This document shows positions 1-33,959 of a DNA stretch of 33,959 bases, in pieces. The DNA is from Bacteroidota bacterium (GTDB lineage: Bacteria; Bacteroidota; Bacteroidia; Chitinophagales; Saprospiraceae). The stretch lies in contig CAUJEY010000099.1 in the NCBI GenBank assembly GCA_963169325.1, forward strand, positions 1 to 33,959, read 5' to 3'. A model generated the notes under the pieces. It was not told where the DNA came from. It saw nothing but the letters and a program-made list of their open reading frames with translations, and searched no databases. The translations under genes were made by a program, and so were the position numbers. Numbering within the stretch: position 1 is the first letter of the stretch; each line of letters begins with the position of its first letter.

Positions 1-330
1 AGTCACGGTTACGGCATAAGTGCCGGCGGGAATACCGGCCAGGTCTTCCGTCGTGGCGTTGTTCGACCAGTTAAATGAGTAAGCGCCTGCGGGTGCGACG
101 TTGAGGTCTACGGCGCCGTTGTTTTGGCCGCAGGTAGAAGCAGTCGGCGTGGCGGTCGGCGTGGGTGGCGTTGTATTGTTAGCGACAGTGGCGGTAGCGA
201 TAGCGGTACAGCCGCCGGGGACTGACGTGACGGTGACGGTGAAATTACCGGCGGCAAGGTTAGAGATATCTTCCGTCGTTGCGCTATTCGACCAGATAAA
301 GGTGTAAGCGCCTGATGGATTGGGTGTTAT
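1..330 (-). repeat. Tandem 225-bp SprB-type coding repeats
   Basis: Two in-frame coding repeats are visible. The element TCTTCCGTCGT occurs at 269 and again at 44, exactly 225 bp (75 codons) apart, with matching flanks such as TTCGACCAG and AAGCGCCTG. The second copy runs to the window edge, so the number of units is unknown. Confidence 0.75.
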
Positions 331-1398
331 ATCGATACTGCCGTTCGGTGCTGTGCAGGAGGAGACAGGAATAGTTGTGCTCGTAATGTTGATGTTTTGG
401 CTGTTAGAAGTAACCGTGAAACTACCGGTTGCTGTTCCGCAGCCTCCCGCATCTGTGACGGTAACCGTGTAGGTGCCGGGATTATTGATGCTGATAGAAG
501 ACGAATTTCCCCCCGTGCTCCAGGCAAAACCGGTATAGTTGCCGGCGTTGGTTACTTCGATAGTTCCGCCCTGGCCGGGGCAGAGGTTGGCCGGTCCGGA
601 TAATTGAGGCGCAGGAATTCCGCCTGAACCGGGTAAAATTTCCAGCGTGTCGATTCCTGCGCAGTTGAAACCATTCTGGGAAACAACGACGACATACGTA
701 CCTGGCATCGAAACTTCGATCGTTGGGGTGTATTCCCCGTTCGGAAGCCACTGATAGGAATCGTATGGTCCTCCCGATACGGAAAGTGTGGCGGTTTGGC
801 CTGAGCAGAGCGATGTTGGCCCCTGAATGACAGGATCAGGTGCAGGCGGGTAGGCCAGGTTATCACTCAAAACCAGGGTACACCCGGAAGATGGGTCGGT
901 AATGGTTACAGTGTAAGTACCCGGGGTAGTAGTGAAAATTCCGGCTGTGGTTTCTCCAGATGACCATAAATAAGTAACGCCAGGGGGCTCGTTGAAGGTC
1001 CAAAGTACTCCTAAATCCATAACATCCCCCGGACAGCAATTGAAGCACGACTGGTTTAATGTCGCATACGCTGTGACAGGGGTTGAAATCCAAAAAAGTC
1101 CAACAACCACACAACCAATATTATCGGTGACCGTCACTAAAAAATTATCCGGTGCATTGGGAACGCAAATGGTCTGGGTCGTTTCATTCGTTGACCATAA
1201 GTATGTGTATGGAGGGTTTTGATTGTTGCCCGTAGGCATGGCACTGATTGGTATACAGTTTATTTGAGGGTCACAGAAATCCGGAACAACGTCTATGATC
1301 ACTTTACAATGAGGCGCCTGGGATTTTATCTGGCCGGCCAATGCAAGAAAGGTTATCAAAAATATTAAAGCGTGGAACTGTGGGAATACTCTTTTCAT
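1..1398 (-). CDS. SprB-repeat / Ig-like surface protein, N-terminal part (cut by window edge)
   Basis: The reading frame is open from an ATG at 1398 down to base 1 (466 codons, no stop), so the protein continues outside the window. It starts with a Sec signal peptide (MKRVFPQFHALIFLITFLAL, then a small-residue stretch). Residues about 50-340 are Ig/PKD-like segments with the repeated themes 'YLWS..ETT', 'PGTYTVT(I/V)TD' and 'LCxGQ'. From about residue 345 there are two SprB-type repeats with a 75-codon period (WSNSATTEDISNLAAGNFTV, then WSNNATTEDLAGIPAGTYAV). Proteins of this class are large exported adhesins or gliding-type surface proteins; a T9SS tail would be expected at the unseen C-terminus. 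It lies 193 bp downstream of the VCBS protein in the same direction. The class is clear, the exact role unknown. Confidence 0.85.
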   Translation of the reverse strand, partial: MKRVFPQFHALIFLITFLALAGQIKSQAPHCKVIIDVVPDFCDPQINCIPISAMPTGNNQNPPYTYLWSTNETTQTICVPNAPDNFLVTVTDNIGCVVVGLFWISTPVTAYATLNQSCFNCCPGDVMDLGVLWTFNEPPGVTYLWSSGETTAGIFTTTPGTYTVTITDPSSGCTLVLSDNLAYPPAPDPVIQGPTSLCSGQTATLSVSGGPYDSYQWLPNGEYTPTIEVSMPGTYVVVVSQNGFNCAGIDTLEILPGSGGIPAPQLSGPANLCPGQGGTIEVTNAGNYTGFAWSTGGNSSSISINNPGTYTVTVTDAGGCGTATGSFTVTSNSQNINITSTTIPVSSCTAPNGSIDITPNPSGAYTFIWSNSATTEDISNLAAGNFTVTVTSVPGGCTAIATATVANNTTPPTPTATPTASTCGQNNGAVDLNVAPAGAYSFNWSNNATTEDLAGIPAGTYAVTVT

Positions 1399-1591
1399 GA
1401 CGTTTGCCAGATAAATCCTTGATCGCTCCGGTTGTCAGAAAAGCATCGTTTTACCCTGACAAACCGGTCAGTGTAAAGGTTGAAAAAAAGCAGGCCGTTC
1501 AATGAGTGAGATTTCCCGAGCCGGAATAAAATGCTGCTGAAGGGGTAAATTGATCAAGGGGAGCGCTGTGCTTAAATTCCCGGGCCAATCC

Positions 1592-4324
1592 TTAATTTTC
1601 AAGGATGAAAGTTTTGTTGGCCACCCTATTCTGAGCAATTATCACCAATTGATACACTCCCGAAGGTAATTCCGCAGTATTCAATATCAGGAAATTGCGC
1701 TGTTGGAGCGACTGCCGGATCAGGTGTCGCCCGGCAATGTCCAGCACCAGGACTTCCGCATCGGGCCCAAGCGCGTCATGTAATACGATTTGGAGCGTTT
1801 TTGATGCAGGAACCGGAAAAACTTCGATGTTGAGGCGTTCAAAAACTTCCTTATTCGAAGAAACTTCAATGGTCACAGGAGTTCGCGGGGAGACACAGGT
1901 AATTTCCGGTTTTTGAATCACCCAATTGAAAAAATACGGGTAAAAATTCAAACCGGTGGAAGAGGAGTCCAGTTGACCGACATCACCGACAGGATAAGGG
2001 TAATCGAGCGCTCCTATGTTTTGAAATTGATCGTTTTGATCACATTTAAGCGAGAATTTCCCGACAGGTATTTGAAAATTAAGGGCCACTACGTTTTTTC
2101 CCTTGTATAAATAGGCGCTGGTTTCCGCAAGAATACTATCGCCGGAAATCAATTGAATGGTCCTTTCTCCCTCGGATGCCTGCCCCGTGATGTAAATATC
2201 TGTAGTGAGCAGGGTAAACGGCGCCCAGGCCGTAAAGCGCATTTCCTTATTGGATGTCAGGATGGCGCCGAACCCCAGGCTGTCCGGTTTCCCACCCGAT
2301 TGGATGGCCCCGGGGTATTTGTAGCGACTTTCTACGTATAGCACGGTATCCGAAAAAACAGGCAGGGTTTGAAAACTACATCCGTCTGACAAAATACTGC
2401 CACCGGTGGGCACGTCGTACCAGGCGCAGTTTTCGCCGCTTGCCAGGAGTAAAATGGAATCGCCGGCGGCCAAAGTGACGGCGTCTGTTTGCGGCGCGTG
2501 AGCGGCTAAAAACGCAATGTCTATTGGCGTGGAAACCAATTTGCCCGCGCCGCAAACGGAATCCCGCGCAACGGTATAACTTCCTGATGTTGTAACGGTT
2601 ATCGTCCCGGTATCCTGTACCCCGTTTGACCAGTAGGACTGGTTGCCCGCAGCGGATTTTAACACCACCGGGGCGCCATCGCATATTTGTTTTTCGCCGC
2701 TTATTATAGATATTTCCGGCAATACTGCGTCCGCCCGGGTTAAGACAACGGATTTGGAAATTCCGGCGCAGCCGGCCGAATCGATACACACCACGTGATA
2801 AAGGCCGGGCGCCCCGGTTTGCAATTCGGCGGCCGTTGTGCCGTTCGACCAACGGTAATGCGCGTAACCGGACGGTGCTGTCAACGAAACCGAATCGCCG
2901 GGACAGAGGTCCGTTTTACCGAAAATTGTTATGTCTTCTGCTACGCGTATACAAGGCGCTTCAGGTATAAAATAGGTGGAGTCGGCCGTCAGATTGAGAA
3001 TTTCGGTCACTGTTCCGCCAGGCCACCTGACCACCAATTTGTCGATACTATCTGCCTGGCCCAACCCAAAATGGACAGAAAGTGTATTCATCGGGCTAAA
3101 ACTTTGACCCGCGCGCAATTCCCTGACCTGAACGCCCCAGGCGCCATAAATTTCAATACGCGCGCCTATGCCGTTTCTATTACTTTCTATACCTCGAAGG
3201 TGGAGTTTCAGCCAGTGATGGTCGTTGCCGTCATTAATCCACAACTGACTTCTGTAAGTGACATCGAGAAACCCGTCGTTGTTAAAATCACCGATAGCGC
3301 CGGGCGTGAAGGGCAGGGATTGGCCGGTAAAAGTCATGTCGCCATTGCCCAGGTACAGGCGGTTGGCGAGTTCTGAAAAAATGTCTGTAAATCCGTCGTT
3401 GTTGAAATCGCCGGAGGCATTTTCCCAGGCGCCCAGGTCGAATTCATCGATGCCCGATGCGGCGATAATATTGGCAAAAGTACCGTCGCCATTGTTTTGG
3501 AACAGGCGGTTTCCCTGGTCGTGGTTGACGATGAACGCATCGAAATCGCCGTCGTTGTCGAAATCTTCAAAAACCGTACTCCAGGATTGCGCATTGTCGT
3601 CAAGTCCGGCCGCAGCGCCTTTTTCCGTAAAAGTGCCATTTCCGTTGTTGTGATATAACAGGTTGGTGCGTGCAGGGTTGCCAGGCATTCCTGTGGCCAG
3701 GCATTTAGTGATATACAAATCAGTGTAGCCGTCATTGTCGTAGTCCGTCCAGATGGCGGAATAATTACCGGGCAGATTGGACGTATTCAGCAGGGTTTGA
3801 TCCAGCGCCATATTGCCGGCTCCATAGTTGCGAAAGGTTTGCGATTTACCGTCGTCACGGCAGACAAAAGCGTCGAGATCGCCGTCGAGATCAATGTCGG
3901 ATAAGGTAGTTCGCTGGCTGAAAATGAAGTCGGGCATCAACGATTCCACAAATCCGGCGCCGTTGGCCTGCGCCAGCAGAAAGGATACGCGGCTCTTGCT
4001 GCCGAAGAGCAGGTCGTTCCAGCCATTGTTGTCGAGATCGCCCGCACAGATGCTCCAGGTAGGAAGCGCCTGAACCCCCATGGAAAAAAAACGATGTTGA
4101 AACGAACCGTCCGGCTGTTGGTAATCGATATGTATGCCCTCACTGCCAATCCGGGTAATATCGTCAAGCATATCTCCATTCATGTCCGCGGCGCATTTAG
4201 CCTGCCCCATGGTGCCCATGATAAACGGGAGCTTTGGGCTATTCTCGGTAAAACTTACCGTTTGGGCGACTATGAAGTACATTGGACATCCCGATATCAA
4301 GAGTGCAAAAACAATTGGTTTCAT
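1592..4324 (-). CDS. Secreted VCBS/FG-GAP repeat protein with ASPIC/UnbV domain and T9SS sorting tail
   Basis: A 910-residue exported protein. I place the start at the ATG at 4324 because MKPIVFALLISGCPMYFIVA is a good signal peptide; the longer frame would need a TTG. Residues about 45-355 carry at least seven FG-GAP/VCBS units with Ca-binding style motifs (DLDNNGWNDL, DIDLDGDLDA, DYDNDGYTDL, DFDNDGDFDA, DFNNDGFTDI), expected to fold as a beta-propeller. About 377-445 is an ASPIC/UnbV domain (GIGARIEIY ... LRAGQSFSPMN ... VHFGLG ... VRWPGG). Ig-like segments follow (LCPGDSVSLTAPSGY). The last 75 residues form a type A T9SS tail (VFPVPASKTLQI ... LPSGVYQLVI). Likely cell-surface or secreted, ligand unknown. 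It sits 54 bp after the mannosidase and could be cotranscribed with it. Confidence 0.9.
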   Translation of the reverse strand: MKPIVFALLISGCPMYFIVAQTVSFTENSPKLPFIMGTMGQAKCAADMNGDMLDDITRIGSEGIHIDYQQPDGSFQHRFFSMGVQALPTWSICAGDLDNNGWNDLLFGSKSRVSFLLAQANGAGFVESLMPDFIFSQRTTLSDIDLDGDLDAFVCRDDGKSQTFRNYGAGNMALDQTLLNTSNLPGNYSAIWTDYDNDGYTDLYITKCLATGMPGNPARTNLLYHNNGNGTFTEKGAAAGLDDNAQSWSTVFEDFDNDGDFDAFIVNHDQGNRLFQNNGDGTFANIIAASGIDEFDLGAWENASGDFNNDGFTDIFSELANRLYLGNGDMTFTGQSLPFTPGAIGDFNNDGFLDVTYRSQLWINDGNDHHWLKLHLRGIESNRNGIGARIEIYGAWGVQVRELRAGQSFSPMNTLSVHFGLGQADSIDKLVVRWPGGTVTEILNLTADSTYFIPEAPCIRVAEDITIFGKTDLCPGDSVSLTAPSGYAHYRWSNGTTAAELQTGAPGLYHVVCIDSAGCAGISKSVVLTRADAVLPEISIISGEKQICDGAPVVLKSAAGNQSYWSNGVQDTGTITVTTSGSYTVARDSVCGAGKLVSTPIDIAFLAAHAPQTDAVTLAAGDSILLLASGENCAWYDVPTGGSILSDGCSFQTLPVFSDTVLYVESRYKYPGAIQSGGKPDSLGFGAILTSNKEMRFTAWAPFTLLTTDIYITGQASEGERTIQLISGDSILAETSAYLYKGKNVVALNFQIPVGKFSLKCDQNDQFQNIGALDYPYPVGDVGQLDSSSTGLNFYPYFFNWVIQKPEITCVSPRTPVTIEVSSNKEVFERLNIEVFPVPASKTLQIVLHDALGPDAEVLVLDIAGRHLIRQSLQQRNFLILNTAELPSGVYQLVIIAQNRVANKTFILEN

Positions 4325-7772: not shown

Positions 7773-7850
7773 ATTAAACACATAGAAACATAGAACACAT
7801 AGAATCTTTTATTATCAAAACTATGTGTTCTATGTGCCTATGTGTTTAAT
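7773..7850. repeat. Intergenic hairpin of short repeats (CACATAGAA-type units)
   Basis: Two 30-nt arms, 7773-7802 and 7821-7850, are complementary at 28 of 30 positions around an 18-nt loop. Each arm is itself three copies of an 8-9 bp unit (CACATAGAA, ACATAGAA, CACATAGAA). It lies between the DUF4185-like gene and the mannosidase, both on the minus strand. It could act as a terminator or processing site between them, or be a dispersed repeat. Confidence 0.85.
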
Positions 7851-13267: not shown

Positions 13268-13285
13268 TTGCAAAAATTGCCGTCC

Positions 13286-13363
13286 ATGACACCATCGCAA
13301 TTGAACTACGAGCGTAATCTTTTTCATCAAATTACATTCCGGATGGTTTTTACGAAAATTTGA
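13286..13363 (+). pseudogene. Duplicated 5' fragment of the ada-like gene (first 10 codons), or a 25-codon ORF
   Basis: The 30 bp from ATG to codon 10 (MTPSQLNYER) are identical to the start of the AraC/methyltransferase gene at 19122-19151. The sequence then diverges and runs into a TGA after 25 codons. The upstream leader is also nearly identical, with one A more in an A-run. I see it as the remnant of a duplication. A translated 25-residue peptide (ending FRMVFTKI) is possible because promoter boxes and start are intact. Confidence 0.7.
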
Positions 13364-19104: not shown

Positions 19105-19121
19105 TATCAAAATTGCAGTCC

Positions 19122-19976
19122 ATGACACCATCGCAATTGAACTACGAGCGTGTGGCCCAGGCTATTGAGTATTTGAGCCGGAATTTTCGCGAACAACCCG
19201 ATTTGCCCGCAGTGGCAGCCCAGGTACACTTGTCGCCCGAGCATTTCCAGCGGATATTCACCGAATGGGCCGGCGTAAGCCCCAAAAAATTTACCCAGTA
19301 TCTGACTATCGATTATTTGCGCAGCCGAATACATCAATTCGACAGCGTACAGGAAGCCGCCGATGCCGTGGGCTTTTCGGCGCAGTCGAGGGTGTACGAT
19401 CTGTTTGTCAACATCGAAGGGGTTACGCCCGACGAATTCAGACGCCGGGGCAAAGGCGCCCACATCCGCTATGGCTTTCACCCGACACCGTTCGGCGAAT
19501 GTTTTATCGCCGCCACCGAACGTGGTATTTGCGGGCTTTCTTTTGTCAACGACACCTCCCCGCAAGTTGAACTGGGCCGGTTCGAGCAAAAATGGGCTTT
19601 CGCACAAGTGGAAGCAGATCAGGATTTTACACGGAAAATAGCGGAAACAATATTTTTTACAAACCGGCCACAGGCATCCAATCTGACGCTGTTGCTTCAG
19701 GGCACCCGGTTTCAGTTGAAAGTTTGGGAAGCCCTGCTCAAAATCCCGGCCGGTTCGGTCAGTACCTACGAACAAATTGCCCGCAGCATTGGCCGCCCAA
19801 CGGCCACACGGGCAGTTGGTACTGCCATCGGTAGCAATCCGGTGGGGTACCTCATTCCCTGCCATCGTGTGATCCGGAAAGCAGGCCAGATCGGGGAGTA
19901 CCACTGGGGCGAAACGCGCAAACGGGCCATAATCGGTTGGGAAATGGTGCGGGAAGCGGTAGCCGTGGCGGTTTAG
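19122..19976 (+). CDS. AraC-HTH / O6-alkylguanine-DNA methyltransferase fusion (Ada-like, no Zn domain)
   Basis: 284 residues. Residues about 5-108 form an AraC-type double helix-turn-helix (LPAVAAQVHLSPEHFQRIFT ... AADAVGFSAQSRVYDLF). About 112-280 is the methyltransferase, with the acceptor Cys247 in IPCHRVI and the conserved VWEALLKIPAGSVSTYEQIA. It should take alkyl groups from O6-alkylguanine onto Cys247 and may regulate genes. The N-terminal Ada zinc-binding domain with the phosphotriester-acceptor Cys of E. coli Ada is absent, so the usual Ada activation switch is missing. Its stop codon overlaps the stop of the opposite gene by 4 bp, leaving no room for a terminator between. Promoter and first ten codons are duplicated at 13221-13315. 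Confidence 0.93.
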   Translation: MTPSQLNYERVAQAIEYLSRNFREQPDLPAVAAQVHLSPEHFQRIFTEWAGVSPKKFTQYLTIDYLRSRIHQFDSVQEAADAVGFSAQSRVYDLFVNIEGVTPDEFRRRGKGAHIRYGFHPTPFGECFIAATERGICGLSFVNDTSPQVELGRFEQKWAFAQVEADQDFTRKIAETIFFTNRPQASNLTLLLQGTRFQLKVWEALLKIPAGSVSTYEQIARSIGRPTATRAVGTAIGSNPVGYLIPCHRVIRKAGQIGEYHWGETRKRAIIGWEMVREAVAVAV

Positions 19977-24339: not shown

Positions 24340-25446
24340 TCAATCACCCAGCCACAAATTACCCGCCACCACTTTTCCGGCTGCCTTTCCATTAATAATC
24401 TGCTCCTGCTGATTGATACTTTCCTGGTGAATTGCTTCCAGAAACATGGAGATAAACTCCGGGCTTAGTTCATTTTTTTCACCCCGCTTTTGCAGCGCCT
24501 CCCGTAGGGCCCGGAACCGTTCGGGCTGGAGCACGGCGATGTTTTTGTCTTTTTTGATGGCGCCGATTTCTTTTACCAAATGCATCCGCTGCGCGATGAG
24601 GTGGATAATCTCTTCGTCGATATCGTCGATGGCGCTGCGACTGTTTTCCATACGGGCCAAAAAATCGGGGTCGTCGGTGGTGACGGCCCGGCGTATCAAC
24701 GCCCGGGTCATTTCGCCGAAACGCTCCGGCGTGACCTGCTGCGCGGCATCGCTCCAGGCCTGGTCGGGCGTAGGATGTACTTCCACCATCAGTCCATCGA
24801 AGTTGAGGTCGTAGGCTTTTTGGGCTGTTTCAGCCAAAATATCGCGGCGCCCGCAGATATGGCTGATGTCGCAGATAACTTCCATATCCGGAAATTCCTG
24901 CATCAGGTCGATCGCCATTTGCCAGCGCGGCACATTGCGGTACTTGGAATCGCCGTAGCTGGAGAATCCGCGGTGAATGGCCGCCACCCGCCGTAAACCG
25001 GCTTTATGCAGGCGCTCGATGGCGCCAACCCAGAGTTTGTAATCGGGATTTACCGGATTTTTCACCAGCACGGGTATGTCGGTGCCTTCCAGGGCATCGG
25101 CAATTTCCTGCACGGAAAAGGGGTTCACCGTAGTGCGCGCGCCGATCCAGAGCACGTCGATGCCGAATTTCAGGCAGTCATACACGTGCTGGGCATTGGC
25201 GACTTCGGTGGTTACCGGCAGCCCGGTTTCGATCTTCACCCGTTTGAGCCATTTTAGCCCCTGCGTCCCGATGCCCTCGAAAGCGCCCGGCCGCGTGCGG
25301 GGTTTCCAGATGCCCGCGCGAAACAGGTCGACACCCTGGTCCTTCAAACCCCGGGCAGTAGCCAGCACTTGTTCTTCGGTTTCGGCAGAGCAGGGGCCGG
25401 CGATGAAGATCGGACGTTTAAGATCGAATACCGGTTGGAAAGTCAT
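24340..25446 (-). CDS. Bifunctional 3-deoxy-7-phosphoheptulonate synthase / chorismate mutase
   Basis: 368 residues from the ATG at 25446 (MTFQPVF); an upstream TTG lies in repeat sequence and is rejected. Residues about 10-260 are a type I-beta DAHP synthase (IFIAGPCSAE ... GIWKPRTRPGAFEG ... LVKNPVNPDYKLWVGAIERL ... SHICGRRD ... LMVEVHPTPD). It condenses phosphoenolpyruvate and erythrose 4-phosphate in the first step of the shikimate pathway. Residues about 272-350 are an AroQ-type chorismate mutase (IDDIDEEIIHLIAQRMHLVK). This fusion is known in Bacteroidota such as Prevotella, where the mutase also takes part in feedback control. Third gene of a trpB-trpA-DAHPS set; the 108-bp gap before it is filled by 10-bp repeats. 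Confidence 0.95.
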   Translation of the reverse strand: MTFQPVFDLKRPIFIAGPCSAETEEQVLATARGLKDQGVDLFRAGIWKPRTRPGAFEGIGTQGLKWLKRVKIETGLPVTTEVANAQHVYDCLKFGIDVLWIGARTTVNPFSVQEIADALEGTDIPVLVKNPVNPDYKLWVGAIERLHKAGLRRVAAIHRGFSSYGDSKYRNVPRWQMAIDLMQEFPDMEVICDISHICGRRDILAETAQKAYDLNFDGLMVEVHPTPDQAWSDAAQQVTPERFGEMTRALIRRAVTTDDPDFLARMENSRSAIDDIDEEIIHLIAQRMHLVKEIGAIKKDKNIAVLQPERFRALREALQKRGEKNELSPEFISMFLEAIHQESINQQEQIINGKAAGKVVAGNLWLGD

Positions 25447-25450
25447 GTTA

Positions 25451-25525
25451 TTGAATGTGGTCAATGTGATGGAATGTGGTCGTTAATCGTCATTAATCGT
25501 CATTAATCGTCATTAATCGTCATTG
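25451..25525. repeat. 10-bp direct repeats between trpA and the DAHP synthase gene
   Basis: GTCATTAATC-type units run from 25479 to 25525, four copies and a partial one. They are preceded by related units of AATGTGGTCA type (25454-25480). The array lies in the leader of the DAHP synthase gene, ending 5 bp before its ATG. Read on the minus strand, each unit holds an ATGACGATTAA mini start-stop. Confidence 0.85.
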
Positions 25526-25554
25526 GGTTTCATTTTTTTTTGAAAAAACAAAAA

Positions 25555-26505
25555 CTAAACGGCGGGGGTTGTGGAATGGGCAATGTTTTCCAAATAATTT
25601 TCCAAACGCCCTTCCTGCTGTGCTACAATAAGCGCCGAGCCGATGATGGCGTAATCGGCCACTTCAAGTACCGCCTTGATCTGTTCCGGCGTATTGATGC
25701 CGAAACCGATCCCGATCCGGGCTGCGCTGTTTCCCGATTTGATGCGCCCGGCGATTTCCCGCAGCCGCGGATGCAGGCTGAAAGTGCTTCCGGTAATTTT
25801 AAAATCGGACATCAGGTAGAAAAAATCGTACCCGGCGGCTATGAGTTGGTCGAGGCGGGTATCGGGGATATTGGCGGCGAGGACGGGGACGAGAGGGGGC
25901 CTGACCCACTCCTCCCCTTTAGCGGCAGGGCCGATCATTTCTGTTATTTTGTCCATTTCGAGGGGTATCATTCTGAGCGAAAGCGAAGAATCCGAGGCCG
26001 AAGGCCTCGATTTTATCTTGTTTTTGAGGCCTTCGGCCTCGGATTCTTCGCTTTCGCTCAGAATGACACCCTGTGGTGACGAGATGACCGAAGAACTGCT
26101 CGACCCTGCTCCTTTAGGGGGGGAGGATTGGGTCGGGCCAACCACCGGCAAATCCGGCACAATAACATGCCCTACCCCCATTTCTCCTAAATCCTGAAAA
26201 AAACGATACATCCCGTAAACATAGATACGATTGAGGTACGACATGACCATAATCTCCTGCTCCGGATATTTTTTCCGCAGCGCGCGGATAGCGGCCAGGC
26301 AATCGGACACGGTTACCCCTTGTTTCACCGCTTCCTGGCAAGCGACGGTTATTACAGGGCCGTCGGCCGTCGGGTGCGAAAAAGGGATTTGTAATTCAAG
26401 GATGGCGCAGCCGGCAGCGATGTAGGTTTCGGCCGTGCGGAGGCTTTCGGGGAGCGTGGGGTAGCCCAGTACGAGGTGGGCCATGATGGGAAGTTGCGGA
26501 AGCAT
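25555..26505 (-). CDS. trpA: Tryptophan synthase alpha subunit with in-frame palindromic insertion
   Basis: 316 residues from the ATG at 26505, against about 250-270 for the family. The alpha-subunit core is present: LELQIPFSHPTADGP holds the catalytic pair Glu37 and Asp48 (Glu49/Asp60 in Salmonella numbering). VPVLAANI, FFYLMSDFKITGS, IGIGFGINTPEQ and ADYAIIGSALI follow the TIM-barrel order. After IVPDLPVV (residue 122) the frame runs through about 80 residues encoded by a palindromic element (residues 123-204, rich in Ser and Glu), then resumes at VPVLAANI. The 16 or so native residues expected there (helix after strand 4) are not recognisable, so activity is uncertain. The enzyme normally releases indole for TrpB. 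trpB lies 62 bp upstream. It could be a decaying gene, but there is no stop or frameshift. Confidence 0.88.
   Translation of the reverse strand: MLPQLPIMAHLVLGYPTLPESLRTAETYIAAGCAILELQIPFSHPTADGPVITVACQEAVKQGVTVSDCLAAIRALRKKYPEQEIMVMSYLNRIYVYGMYRFFQDLGEMGVGHVIVPDLPVVGPTQSSPPKGAGSSSSSVISSPQGVILSESEESEAEGLKNKIKSRPSASDSSLSLRMIPLEMDKITEMIGPAAKGEEWVRPPLVPVLAANIPDTRLDQLIAAGYDFFYLMSDFKITGSTFSLHPRLREIAGRIKSGNSAARIGIGFGINTPEQIKAVLEVADYAIIGSALIVAQQEGRLENYLENIAHSTTPAV
25898..26139. repeat. 242-bp palindromic element inside trpA (REP/MITE-like)
   Basis: The core is a perfect 41-bp inverted repeat, 25968-26008 and 26026-26066, around a 17-bp AT-rich spacer; it contains the phrase CATTCTGAGCGAAAGCGAAG. 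Outside it, imperfect outer arms continue to 25898 and 26139 (GGCCTGACCCACTCCTCCCC against the complement of the right end, GGCCCGACCCAATCCTCCCC). Both arms are open in the trpA frame, giving VILSESEESEAEGL from one arm and RPSASDSSLSLRM from the other. No target-site duplication was found by eye. Confidence 0.85.
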
Positions 26506-26518
26506 TTTCTTTCTTACC

Positions 26519-26564
26519 ACAAAGTGCACAAAGTTCACATTAGCAGGTTCTTAGTGCACTTTGT
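26519..26564. repeat. Hairpin of CACAAAGTG-type units between trpB and trpA
   Basis: Perfect 11-bp arms ACAAAGTGCAC (26519-26529) and GTGCACTTTGT (26554-26564) with a 24-nt loop. The left side repeats its unit (CACAAAGTG, CACAAAGTT, CACA). It lies in the 62-bp gap between trpB and trpA and could attenuate trpA relative to trpB. Confidence 0.75.
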
Positions 26565-26567
26565 ACA

Positions 26568-27818
26568 TTATATGGTTAATAAATTTTTTGCGTATTGAAT
26601 CAAACTCTCCTCCTGGAAATGCCGCATGGTTATAAACAAATCCTTCTCTCCCCGCCCGGAAGCGTTGACGGCCACGACGGCCTCGCGCGGCAACTCCGCA
26701 GCCAGTTGGAAGGCATAAGCAAAAGCGTGCGCCGATTCGAGGGCCGGAATGATACCTTCTGCGCGGGCCAGGGTTTGCACGGCCTCCAGGGCTTCCGCAT
26801 CCGAAGCCACGGCAAATTCCACACGTCCGGCATCGGCCAGCCAGGCCAGCACCGGGCTGACGCCGCAGTAATCCAGCCCGGCTGATACCGAATGGGTGTT
26901 GGCGATATTACCATCGCCGTCCTGTAAAAAATACGAGTGATAACCTTCGAAAATGCCGGCCTGGCCTTGCAGCAGTTTGGCGGCGTGCTCGCCGGAGCGT
27001 GTACCGCGCCCGCCTGCTTCCACGCCGATCAGGCGCACCGACTCCTCATCCAGAAAATCGAAAAACATACCCATCGCATTGGAGCCGCCGCCCACGCAAG
27101 CCACGCATACATCGGGTAAACGTCCGGCTTGAGCCAGGCATTGGCGGCGGATTTCCTCGCCTACAATTTTTTGAAAAAAGGTATTCATCGCCGGGTAAGG
27201 ATGTGGCCCCACGGCTGAGCCGAGCAAATAATAGGTATCGTTGGGGTGCGCCACCCAGTCTTTAAACGCCGCAATGACCGCGTCGTTGAGCGTTTGAGTC
27301 CCGTCTTCCACGGGTACCACGCGGGCGCCGAGCAGTTCCATCCAGTACACGTTGGGGCGCTGGCGCTCGTAGTCTTTCCGGCCCATGTACACGGTGCAGT
27401 CCAACCCCATGCGGGCGCACACGGCTGCTGTGGCATAACCGTGTTGCCCGGCACCTGTTTCGGCGATAATGCGGCGTTTGCCCAGCCGCTTGGCCAACAG
27501 GGCCTGCCCGATGCAGTGGTTGATTTTGTGCGCGCCGGTATGGTTGAGCCCTTCATTTTTTAAAAAAAGTTGGGCGCCGCCCAAACGTTCCGACAACCGC
27601 GGAAGCGGCGTTAGGGGCGTGGGGCGGCCGGAAAACTCTCGCAGGGTCTGCCGGAATTCGGCCAGAAATGTTTCATCCGTTTTGATGGCTTCAAAGGCAT
27701 CGGCAATTTCCGACAAGCCCGGCAGCAATACTTCAGGTACAAAGCACCCGCCGTACGGGCCAAAAAAACCGTTGGAGGCCAGTATTTGATCCTGATAGGT
27801 CGTTTGTGTAAGTGTCAT
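26568..27818 (-). CDS. trpB: Tryptophan synthase beta subunit
   Basis: 416 residues from the ATG at 27818 (MTLTQTTYQDQ); the frame extends upstream only into promoter sequence. NHTGAHKIN carries the PLP lysine Lys98, IIAETGAGQHG the catalytic Glu120, GGGSNAMG the phosphate-binding loop, and ALESAHA the conserved C-terminal block. It joins indole and serine to make tryptophan, in complex with TrpA encoded just downstream. Length and motifs are normal. The -7 box TATCTTTG lies 36 bp upstream. First gene of the trpB-trpA-DAHPS group; other trp genes are not in the window. Confidence 0.97.
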   Translation of the reverse strand: MTLTQTTYQDQILASNGFFGPYGGCFVPEVLLPGLSEIADAFEAIKTDETFLAEFRQTLREFSGRPTPLTPLPRLSERLGGAQLFLKNEGLNHTGAHKINHCIGQALLAKRLGKRRIIAETGAGQHGYATAAVCARMGLDCTVYMGRKDYERQRPNVYWMELLGARVVPVEDGTQTLNDAVIAAFKDWVAHPNDTYYLLGSAVGPHPYPAMNTFFQKIVGEEIRRQCLAQAGRLPDVCVACVGGGSNAMGMFFDFLDEESVRLIGVEAGGRGTRSGEHAAKLLQGQAGIFEGYHSYFLQDGDGNIANTHSVSAGLDYCGVSPVLAWLADAGRVEFAVASDAEALEAVQTLARAEGIIPALESAHAFAYAFQLAAELPREAVVAVNASGRGEKDLFITMRHFQEESLIQYAKNLLTI

Positions 27819-27853
27819 GTTTATTTTTATATCATCGTACTGGTACAGTGATG

Positions 27854-27861
27854 CAAAGATA
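27854..27861 (-). promoter_or_regulatory. -7 box of the trpB operon
   Basis: TATCTTTG on the minus strand is a perfect TAnnTTTG. GTTG lies 19 bp upstream as the -33 element. Divergent from the gene at 27990; a small palindrome TTGGAG-GTAT-CTCCAA (27935-27950) lies between the two. Confidence 0.55.
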
Positions 27862-27989
27862 AACACTTCTCTTTTACTAACAACAATTAAATAATAGACA
27901 TGAATTTATCTCCCGGCAAGAAGCATATTTGGCCTTGGAGGTATCTCCAAACAGTTGAATTTTTTTTATTATAACCTGAATCCTGACTT

Positions 27990-32405: not shown

Positions 32406-33263
32406 ATGAAAAATAATCGCACAATCATATTCACCGCATTGTTCCTGATTTTTTCGGCGCCTGCCGTATTTGCCCTGGGCTGGCCTCAACGCAAGGGACA
32501 TGGGTTTTTCAAACTCGATTTTAGTACGATCCGGGCCCGGCAGTTCTTCGGTATGGATGGAAATATTTACGATATCAATGGCGCAGGTACAATACTGGGC
32601 AATTACACCACCTCGTTCTACGGTGAATACGGCCTGACCAAGCGGCTGACCGCCATTGCCTACGTGCCCTTTTTGGTGCGCAATACGGTGAACGAAGGAG
32701 TGGGCGCCATCACCGGCGAAGTGCTGCAACCAGGCCTTGAAAACACGGCTTTCGGCGACACCGACCTGGGGCTCCGGTATGGGTTTCTGCAAAAAGGTCC
32801 CTGGGTATTGAGCGCCACCGCTATGATCGGTATCCCCAGCGGCGACTACAAAAATGCCGACCTGCTGTACACCGGCGACGGCGAATTCAATCAGATGCTC
32901 CAGTTGGAGTGGGGCTATGGCGCCGCGCGCTGGTATGCCACCGGGTATGTTGGAGTAAACAACCGGACGAAGGATTTTTCTGAAGAATTCCGGTACCACG
33001 CCGAATTCGGCTACTGGCTGATGAAAAGCACTTTGCTCGCCGCAGTAAAGTTTGCCGGCGTAGAATCATTCAACAACGGCAATCCAACCGGTTCCGGTAA
33101 CGGCTTGTTTTCCAATAATGTGGAATACGCTTCGCCGCAATTATCACTCACCTACGAGCATAAACAAAAATGGGGACTCACGGCCCAAATTGCCGGAGCC
33201 ATGTCCGGCCGAAATGCCCTTGCTTCGCCGGCAATATCCGTGGGTGTGTATTGTAAAGTTTGA
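32406..33263 (+). CDS. Outer-membrane beta-barrel protein, function unknown
   Basis: 285 residues from the ATG at 32406 (signal MKNNRTIIFTALFLIFSAPA, cleavage after VFA). The rest alternates in the way of an outer-membrane beta-barrel, with strands such as YGEYGLTKRLTAIAYVPFLV, WVLSATAMIGIPSG, LQLEWGYG and PQLSLTYEHKQKWGLTAQIA. No family with a defined substrate is recognised; it recalls short transporter-like barrels found next to redox proteins. Its stop codon lies inside the first arm of a heptamer repeat. Probably cotranscribed with the DM13 lipoprotein. Confidence 0.78.
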   Translation: MKNNRTIIFTALFLIFSAPAVFALGWPQRKGHGFFKLDFSTIRARQFFGMDGNIYDINGAGTILGNYTTSFYGEYGLTKRLTAIAYVPFLVRNTVNEGVGAITGEVLQPGLENTAFGDTDLGLRYGFLQKGPWVLSATAMIGIPSGDYKNADLLYTGDGEFNQMLQLEWGYGAARWYATGYVGVNNRTKDFSEEFRYHAEFGYWLMKSTLLAAVKFAGVESFNNGNPTGSGNGLFSNNVEYASPQLSLTYEHKQKWGLTAQIAGAMSGRNALASPAISVGVYCKV

Positions 33264-33342
33264 AGTTTGAAGTTTGAAGTTTAAAGTTGGCGCCCCTCGG
33301 TTCAAACTTCAAACTTTGAACTTCAAACTTTGAACTTCAAAC
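33255..33342. repeat. Inverted heptamer arrays between two convergent genes (likely two-way terminator)
   Basis: Left arm: GAAGTTT-type heptamers from 33255 to 33287. Right arm: TTCAAAC / TTTGAAC heptamers from 33301 to 33342. They can pair as a long hairpin. The stop codon of the barrel gene (33261-33263) and that of bcp (33342-33344) lie in or at the edge of the arms. Confidence 0.85.
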
Positions 33343-33794
33343 TACCCAAGTACTTGTGCCGAATGATTTTCCGTATCCACCTTGCTGATAATCCGTTCGA
33401 TTTTCCCGGATTCATCGATCACAAAGGTGGTCCGGTGAATGCCGTCGTAGGCACGGCCCATAAATTTTTTTTGCCCCCATACGCCGTAGGCATTGGCGAC
33501 GCTGTGGTCTTCATCGGCTAGCAGGCTGAATGGCAACTGGTATTTTTCCTGGAACTTGACGTGTTTTTTCACGGAATCCGGGCTAACGCCGAGTATTTCA
33601 TAACCTTTTGCCAAAAACTGCGGATACCCGTCGCGCAAGCTGCATGCTTCGGCCGTACAACCGGGCGTATCGTCTTTCGGATAAAAATACAGCACTAATT
33701 TTTTGCCTTTATAATCGCTCAAACTAACGGTTTGACCTTTTTCAGTCAAGGTGGCAAAATCAGGGGCGGGATCGCCTTCTTTTAAGTGAAACAT
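33342..33794 (-). CDS. bcp: Thioredoxin-dependent peroxiredoxin (BCP/PrxQ type)
   Basis: 150 residues from the ATG at 33794 (MFHLKEGDPAPDF); the upstream in-frame extension is translated heptamer repeat and is rejected. The peroxidatic Cys46 is in YPKDDTPGCTAEAC and the likely resolving Cys51 is five residues later, the PrxQ/BCP pattern. ILGVSPDSVKKHVKFQEKYQ and the C-terminal RTTFVIDESGKI are standard. It reduces peroxides using thioredoxin in the cytoplasm. Length is normal. The promoter must lie in or beyond the repeat at 33801-33959. Confidence 0.95.
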   Translation of the reverse strand: MFHLKEGDPAPDFATLTEKGQTVSLSDYKGKKLVLYFYPKDDTPGCTAEACSLRDGYPQFLAKGYEILGVSPDSVKKHVKFQEKYQLPFSLLADEDHSVANAYGVWGQKKFMGRAYDGIHRTTFVIDESGKIERIISKVDTENHSAQVLG

Positions 33795-33800
33795 GAATAT

Positions 33801-33959
<159 letters not shown>

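Follow-up and report, generated by a model that had tools for sequence, protein, structure and literature searches.

A dispersed palindromic repeat read in frame within a tryptophan synthase alpha loop that is occupied by different repeats in related Bacteroidota

How can trpA, the gene of a core enzyme, harbour a long palindrome and still be read from end to end? The question is raised by a contig of a Bacteroidota genome, of which a stretch of 33,959 nucleotides (hereafter, the window) was analysed. A first-pass annotation had proposed that a 242-bp element with a perfect 41-bp core, taken to be a selfish palindrome, interrupts trpA after codon 122. The gene was identified in a family model scan, in which its product scored 139.1 bits with TIGR00262 (cut-off 102.35), and Pfam Trp_syntA matched the protein in two stretches. 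A second in-frame start, GTG at 26538, lies upstream of the ATG used here (Table 1). A search of the genome with trpA returned one true trpA match, the other nine matches being copies of the repeat described below. The neighbouring genes were named by eye, trpB also by its match to trpB on a public contig (L094, positions 1-3666). This contig, titled Thermoanaerobaculia, encodes a TrpA identical to that of genome G050, of the same genus as the window, and its label looks wrong. Tandem decamer repeats (about TTAATCGTCA) occupy 25479-25528, immediately upstream of the aroG/pheA-like gene.

Table 1. Features of the trpA locus and of the palindromic element (window coordinates; dN/dS is pairwise, with synonymous sites near saturation)
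Feature	Position	Strand	Remarks
trpA (tryptophan synthase alpha)	25555..26505	-	316 aa from ATG at 26505
TrpA N-terminal part, strands 1-4	26140..26505	-	intact, ends PDLPV; dN/dS 0.108 vs sister G050
TrpA C-terminal part, strands 5-8	25555..25897	-	intact, from about LVPVLAAN; dN/dS 0.133 vs sister G050
242-bp palindromic element	25898..26139	.	fills nearly the whole beta4-beta5 connection of TrpA; an opposite-strand self-match spans exactly these positions
Outer end GGCCTGACCCACTCCTCCCC	25898..25917	+	18/20 complementary to 26120-26139
Inner arm 1	25963..26008	+	hairpin ATTCT-GA-GC-GAAA-GC-GA-AGAAT, then hairpin GAGGCC-GAA-GGCCTC (pairing drawn by eye)
17-nt spacer, palindrome tip	26009..26025	.	
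Inner arm 2	26026..26071	-	inverted copy of arm 1, 45/46
Outer end, inverted, GGCCCGACCCAATCCTCCCC	26120..26139	-	pairs 18/20 with 25898-25917
trpB	26568..27866	-	directly upstream of trpA, same orientation
aroG/pheA-like gene	24340-25464	-	downstream of trpA

The extent of the element and its perfect core were as first described. The inner arms are complementary at 45 of 46 positions and, past the single mismatch, 41 nt pair perfectly across the 17-nt spacer. With the hairpins drawn by eye, the arms amount to two inverted REP-like units with a short spacer, the arrangement of a REPIN, and form a doublet of about 110 bp. Loops of this kind, closed by G.A pairs, give very stable DNA hairpins as a class. 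The segment 25880-26160 folded as DNA to -97 kcal/mol (z -13.7), and the coding strand from 25890 to 26147 folded as RNA to -161.6 (z -15.6), with none of 200 shuffles equally good in either case. Across the whole window, Rfam gave nothing that reached the gathering threshold; its nine sub-threshold matches at a permissive threshold, seven of them to miRNA models, reflect the hairpin alone. Plasmid and phage collections searched with the core gave no match at E<=1e-3.

The residues D118-L119-P120-V121 precede the insert, which places the interruption within one codon of that first proposed, and the trpA frame runs open through 25898-26139, with neither stop nor frameshift in either arm. The translation of the insert includes VILSESEESEAEGLK. 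Such an open frame is not remarkable alone, because 2434 of 5000 dinucleotide shuffles had at least one open frame among the six.

Searching the 8.07-Mb genome with the element gave 26 strand-wise, overlapping matches, which were merged by hand into 13 places, that of the window included. The core was also matched elsewhere in the genus, in nine of 42 genomes counting its own (E<=0.001). In other copies the first loop is GAA, GTA, GCA or GTAA and the stems vary. The outer arms of copies related to the trpA element end in C-rich stretches, and copies on contigs C139, C319 and C20 have the same core with different outer arms. At two of the 13 places the element is embedded in an ORF that stays open for a long way on either side, namely trpA and a 496-aa ORF on contig C335 (locus L014, G000:C335, 991-2478). 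Both read the element in the same frame, as VILSESEES..KSRPSASDSSLSL in trpA and VILIPGSRE..KSRPSTPDASLSL in the C335 ORF. The latter had no match in Pfam or NCBIfam and is likely to be a real gene; by eye, it has a membrane-helix-like stretch near its N-terminus. Three further ORFs of more than 150 aa spanning copies in this genome were not counted: in a 337-aa ORF on C274 the element lies upstream of the likely ATG, and ORFs of 185 aa (C274, in another frame) and 184 aa (C139) show no evident sign of being genes.

Other copies, which the first-pass annotation had suggested looking for together with any REP-type transposase, are thus present. Y1_Tnp models gave 38 matches in nine genomes, and 33 of these loci, scanned with up to 1.5 kb of flank, held no instance of the core motif GTCATTCTGAG (0/33). 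The REPIN reading of the element is therefore one of analogy, and its mobility is inferred. A loose pattern match in L169 and GGCC-type matches in L162, L169 and L176 are not the element. Around the three Y1 transposases of the window's own genome other repeats were seen by eye, without the core motif. At the trpA insertion no target-site duplication was obvious by eye; native codons have been lost there, so that a duplication would not be readable.

We compared the insertion with TrpA of relatives, for which matches were found in 27 of the 42 genus genomes (own included). Two distant sequences (G052 and G044, 29-31% identity) were left out, and 25 were aligned. From PDLPV to the PV of strand 5, the loop measures 84 aa in the window's TrpA, 52 aa in G050 and 13-26 aa in the other aligned proteins. 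Relative to the reference G012, the gain is 69 residues here, 37 in G050, 11 in G014, 9 in G041, 8 in G051 and 7 in G047. Ends aside, insertions of more than two residues with respect to G012 occur at two sites only among the 25 proteins, the largest being in the beta4-beta5 loop; the second site, just before GIGFG, has gained 17 residues in G041 and 9 in G007 and G009. In a PDB profile search, the loop corresponded to the residues that follow PDLP in 5ey5 chain A, taken here as helix 4 of the TrpA fold. The window's loop retains nothing recognisable of the other genus loops, as expected if the native helix after strand 4 was replaced, and in none of the 25 proteins was the same extra segment found without the palindrome. 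The enlarged loops of different genomes have no evident common sequence.

Three relatives' loops, picked as longest or palindromic-looking (G050, G041 and G014), were tested for copy number, and all three recur in their own genomes. The G050 insert has four further matches (76-80%) on three contigs of that genome, one of which carries two matches as an inverted pair, and none in the genome of the window. In the G041 loop lies a palindrome some 40 nt long, of which G041 has two more copies (98% and 93%); the repeat is also matched in G007 (95%) and more weakly in G021, G001, G009 and G023. The G014 loop contains a portion of a repeat that has 23 more matches in the same genome at E<=0.05 (16 of these at E<=0.001) and that is also matched in G010 and, weakly, in G023. 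The further matches of the three loops fall mostly within the added segment of the query (positions 65-148 of 171 for G050, 22-75 of 78 for G014 and 17-72 of 72 for G041), except for a marginal 24-base match of the G041 query in G009 (positions 5-28, E 0.008). By eye, the loops of G006, G016 and G048 look like microsatellites of the ATTCATC or CATTCCTC type.

Because the loops of relatives hold different repeats, the beta4-beta5 loop of TrpA is, as far as comparison of these genomes tells, a recurrent landing site. The palindrome first noticed in trpA is real, and its first description was incomplete in that the gene is a recurrent target. In a TrpA tree the window's protein and that of G050 are sisters (support 100/96), and G041 and G014 stand elsewhere, deep support being weak. 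A label test on this tree gave one change for the repeat carriers, a figure obtained against three microsatellite rows only, with 18 rows uncounted; the independence of the loop insertions rests on the repeats being different and not on this test. As a separate observation, heptamer microsatellites of the ATTCATC type, similar to repeats in the G006 and G016 loops, are present in the window at 33801-33831 and 33883-33959, at the start of a peroxiredoxin-like ORF (by eye).

We considered the possibility that a hairpin repeat had been wrongly joined into trpA during assembly. The genome is a draft of 349 contigs, and three of them (C129, C190 and C305) begin or end inside copies of the element. 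Yet the sequence on either side of the insert belongs to a single trpA, whose two halves are in frame with each other, and a wrong join would not restore both sides. The order trpB, trpA, aroG/pheA-like gene is moreover the same on the sister contig L094, and other genomes carry other repeats at the same loop. We regard an artefact as highly improbable.

The barrel outside the insert looks intact, judging by conservation and by structure prediction. Of the 66 residues at which the other 24 aligned proteins do not vary, the window's TrpA breaks none, and its branch in the tree is 0.10, as compared with a median of 0.2 for end branches. Residues E37 and D48, invariant in seven aligned sequences, are kept; we take them to be the catalytic Glu and Asp of the family, which the first-pass annotation had already reported as present. 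In an AlphaFold model (seven sequences), most of the barrel exceeded a pLDDT of 85, and residues 122-186 and 188-193 fell below 50, suggesting that the insert is disordered. The 50 Foldseek matches listed for the PDB all belong to tryptophan synthase. Three carry other titles (2ekc in two rows, 5ey5 in one) but were named TrpA or LBCATS-a in the PDB profile search. Measured against G050, with synonymous sites near saturation (pS about 0.6), dN/dS was 0.12 for trpA outside the loop, 0.083 for trpB and 0.035 for the next gene, so that trpA appears somewhat less constrained than its two neighbours. Such a pairwise value mostly reflects older divergence, from which selection after the insertion cannot be isolated, and the element may be recent.

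This last point bears on the possibility that trpA is dying, i.e. that the insertion inactivated or weakened the gene and that the frame is open only since the event is recent. The near identity of the inner arms would fit a young element, the dN/dS of trpA exceeds that of both neighbours, and absence of the gene seems common in the clade, as no TrpA match was found in 15 of the 42 genus genomes. One carrier, G014, breaks 5 of 71 invariant residues and has a long branch; its TrpA may be decaying. Against decay in the window speak the unbroken invariants and the short branch. Furthermore, the G050 repeat is only 76-80% like its copies and still lies in an open, mostly conserved trpA, and the repeats in the loops of all three relatives are in frame. 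We consider decay unlikely.

Alternatively, the insert could have been recruited to serve TrpA, for instance through contacts with TrpB or through regulation by an mRNA hairpin. It directly follows strand 4, and the hairpin predicted for the transcript is very strong. However, the AlphaFold model gives the insert no confident structure, and the enlarged loops of different genomes have no evident sequence in common. Recruitment thus appears very unlikely.

The explanation that we favour, and hold to be probable, is that a selfish hairpin repeat landed in trpA, replaced the variable alpha4 segment and persists there because its frame is open and the loop is tolerant. The element, in which longer outer arms enclose an inverted pair of REP-like units, would be of a REPIN-like or MITE-like kind. 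After insertion it would have persisted as long as the frame stayed open and the loop tolerated the added residues, and the host would then make, by full-length translation, an active TrpA whose barrel is intact and whose loop, about 80 residues long, is disordered. Since other genus genomes have taken up different repeats in this loop, the apparent targeting is best read as selection at the protein level: insertions elsewhere in TrpA would be purged, and those in the loop would survive.

Repeats of the relatives are also read in frame in other genes. That of G041 has the reading DLTIPKKSGLSNL, or a near variant of it, in three genes, namely trpA and those of a glycosyltransferase and of CoaBC (TIGR00521, 407 bits, cut-off 219.7); in the last two it sits at the junction of two domains. 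The G014 repeat is in frame in GatA (TIGR00132, 495.9, cut-off 481.1), ApbE and a helicase, as well as in the N-terminal tail of an RNA pseudouridine synthase (L185/L190), where the start is unsure. It precedes the AAA matches in the helicase and lies inside the domain match in GatA and ApbE. The loci concerned are L195 (GatA), L141 (CoaBC), L138 (glycosyltransferase), L197 (ApbE), L189 (helicase) and L185 (pseudouridine synthase), and the positions in these other genes may correspond to loops or linkers. A G050 copy in an LptD/OstA-like ORF (L147) was not counted as in frame, being N-terminal with an unsure start. In G001, a 27-nt match to the G041 repeat (L135) falls in a gene that by eye resembles that of histidyl-tRNA synthetase; this match is probably due to chance.

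A bolder proposal would extend these observations to a general mechanism, at work across the genus, by which hairpin repeats enter protein genes in frame, favouring certain reading frames, via an enzyme acting on single-stranded hairpins. The beta4-alpha4 loop of TrpA would then be genuinely favoured as a target, with successive repeat families overwriting each other and new protein loops arising at a high rate. We deem this rather improbable.

The kind of element is already known from the Rickettsia palindromic elements (RPEs) and from intragenic REPs. PMC10969869, citing Ogata 2000 and 2002, describes RPEs as dispersed palindromic repeats that lie in frame inside unrelated protein genes and encode a conserved peptide, and the title of a reference therein presents protein-coding palindromes as a recurrent feature of Rickettsia. 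Like RPEs, the trpA element is dispersed, palindromic and read in one and the same frame in two genes or putative genes (2 of 13 places), and the G041 repeat is read in one frame in three genes; the likeness is one of description. Unlike RPEs, which measure about 150 bp, the element is 242 bp long, and its host clade is not Rickettsia: of the six relatives that have titles, five are Saprospiraceae or Chitinophagales MAGs and one is titled Thermoanaerobaculia. A further difference is that here a single site in a single gene has received several different repeats.

Intragenic GTAG/CGTC REPs provide a second parallel. As reported in PMC3733652, REPs and inverted REP pairs occur inside ORFs, clusters of them encode 43-82 aa, and different REPs lie at about the same recB site in X. 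campestris and X. oryzae. The trpA element differs from these in being longer and having outer arms, and one TrpA loop holds four different repeats in four genomes. By eye, no GTAG or CGTC foot was noticed in the core among the copies viewed. A third parallel is with REPIN/BIME elements and their RAYT (TnpA-REP) transposases, since each arm is a REP-like hairpin and two inverted arms form a doublet; here the long outer arms and the lack of a Y1 transposase beside the motif in the 33 loci set the element apart. The copying of REPINs by Y1 (HUH) transposases, as outlined in PMC6006769, offers an analogy for how the element might spread. The same paper reports REPs inserted within RAYT genes of a subclass that abounds in Cyanobacteria and Bacteroidetes, which gives in-gene REPs a precedent in this phylum. 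With MITEs the element shares being a short dispersed inverted-repeat sequence devoid of a transposase gene, and it differs in that no cognate transposase was found for it; a target-site duplication was not obvious by eye.

Searches of the open-licence literature gave no report of the exact core strings or of a palindromic in-frame insertion in tryptophan synthase, and none of the titles and abstracts listed dealt with in-gene palindromes of Saprospiraceae, which is no proof of absence. As far as this search reaches, the host clade, the size and the presence of four different repeats in one loop of a core enzyme are new. In-frame hairpin repeats would thereby extend, beyond Rickettsia and the REPs of other bacteria, to several genes of a Bacteroidota clade. 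The loops of 13 to 84 residues constitute a natural series of replacements in a well-studied enzyme, and this series makes the origin of new protein segments from selfish DNA testable.

The window contains other repeats as well. A 43-nt direct repeat (98%) occurs at 13273-13315 and 19109-19151, 5.8 kb apart; the start of an Ada-like ORF (by eye) lies within the second of these copies. A 30-nt inverted repeat (93%), with arms at 7773-7802 and 7821-7850 and 18 nt between them, surrounds the start of a large ORF. Near the end of an ORF, at 33244-33288 and 33301-33348, AAGTTTG-type repeats form inverted arrays.
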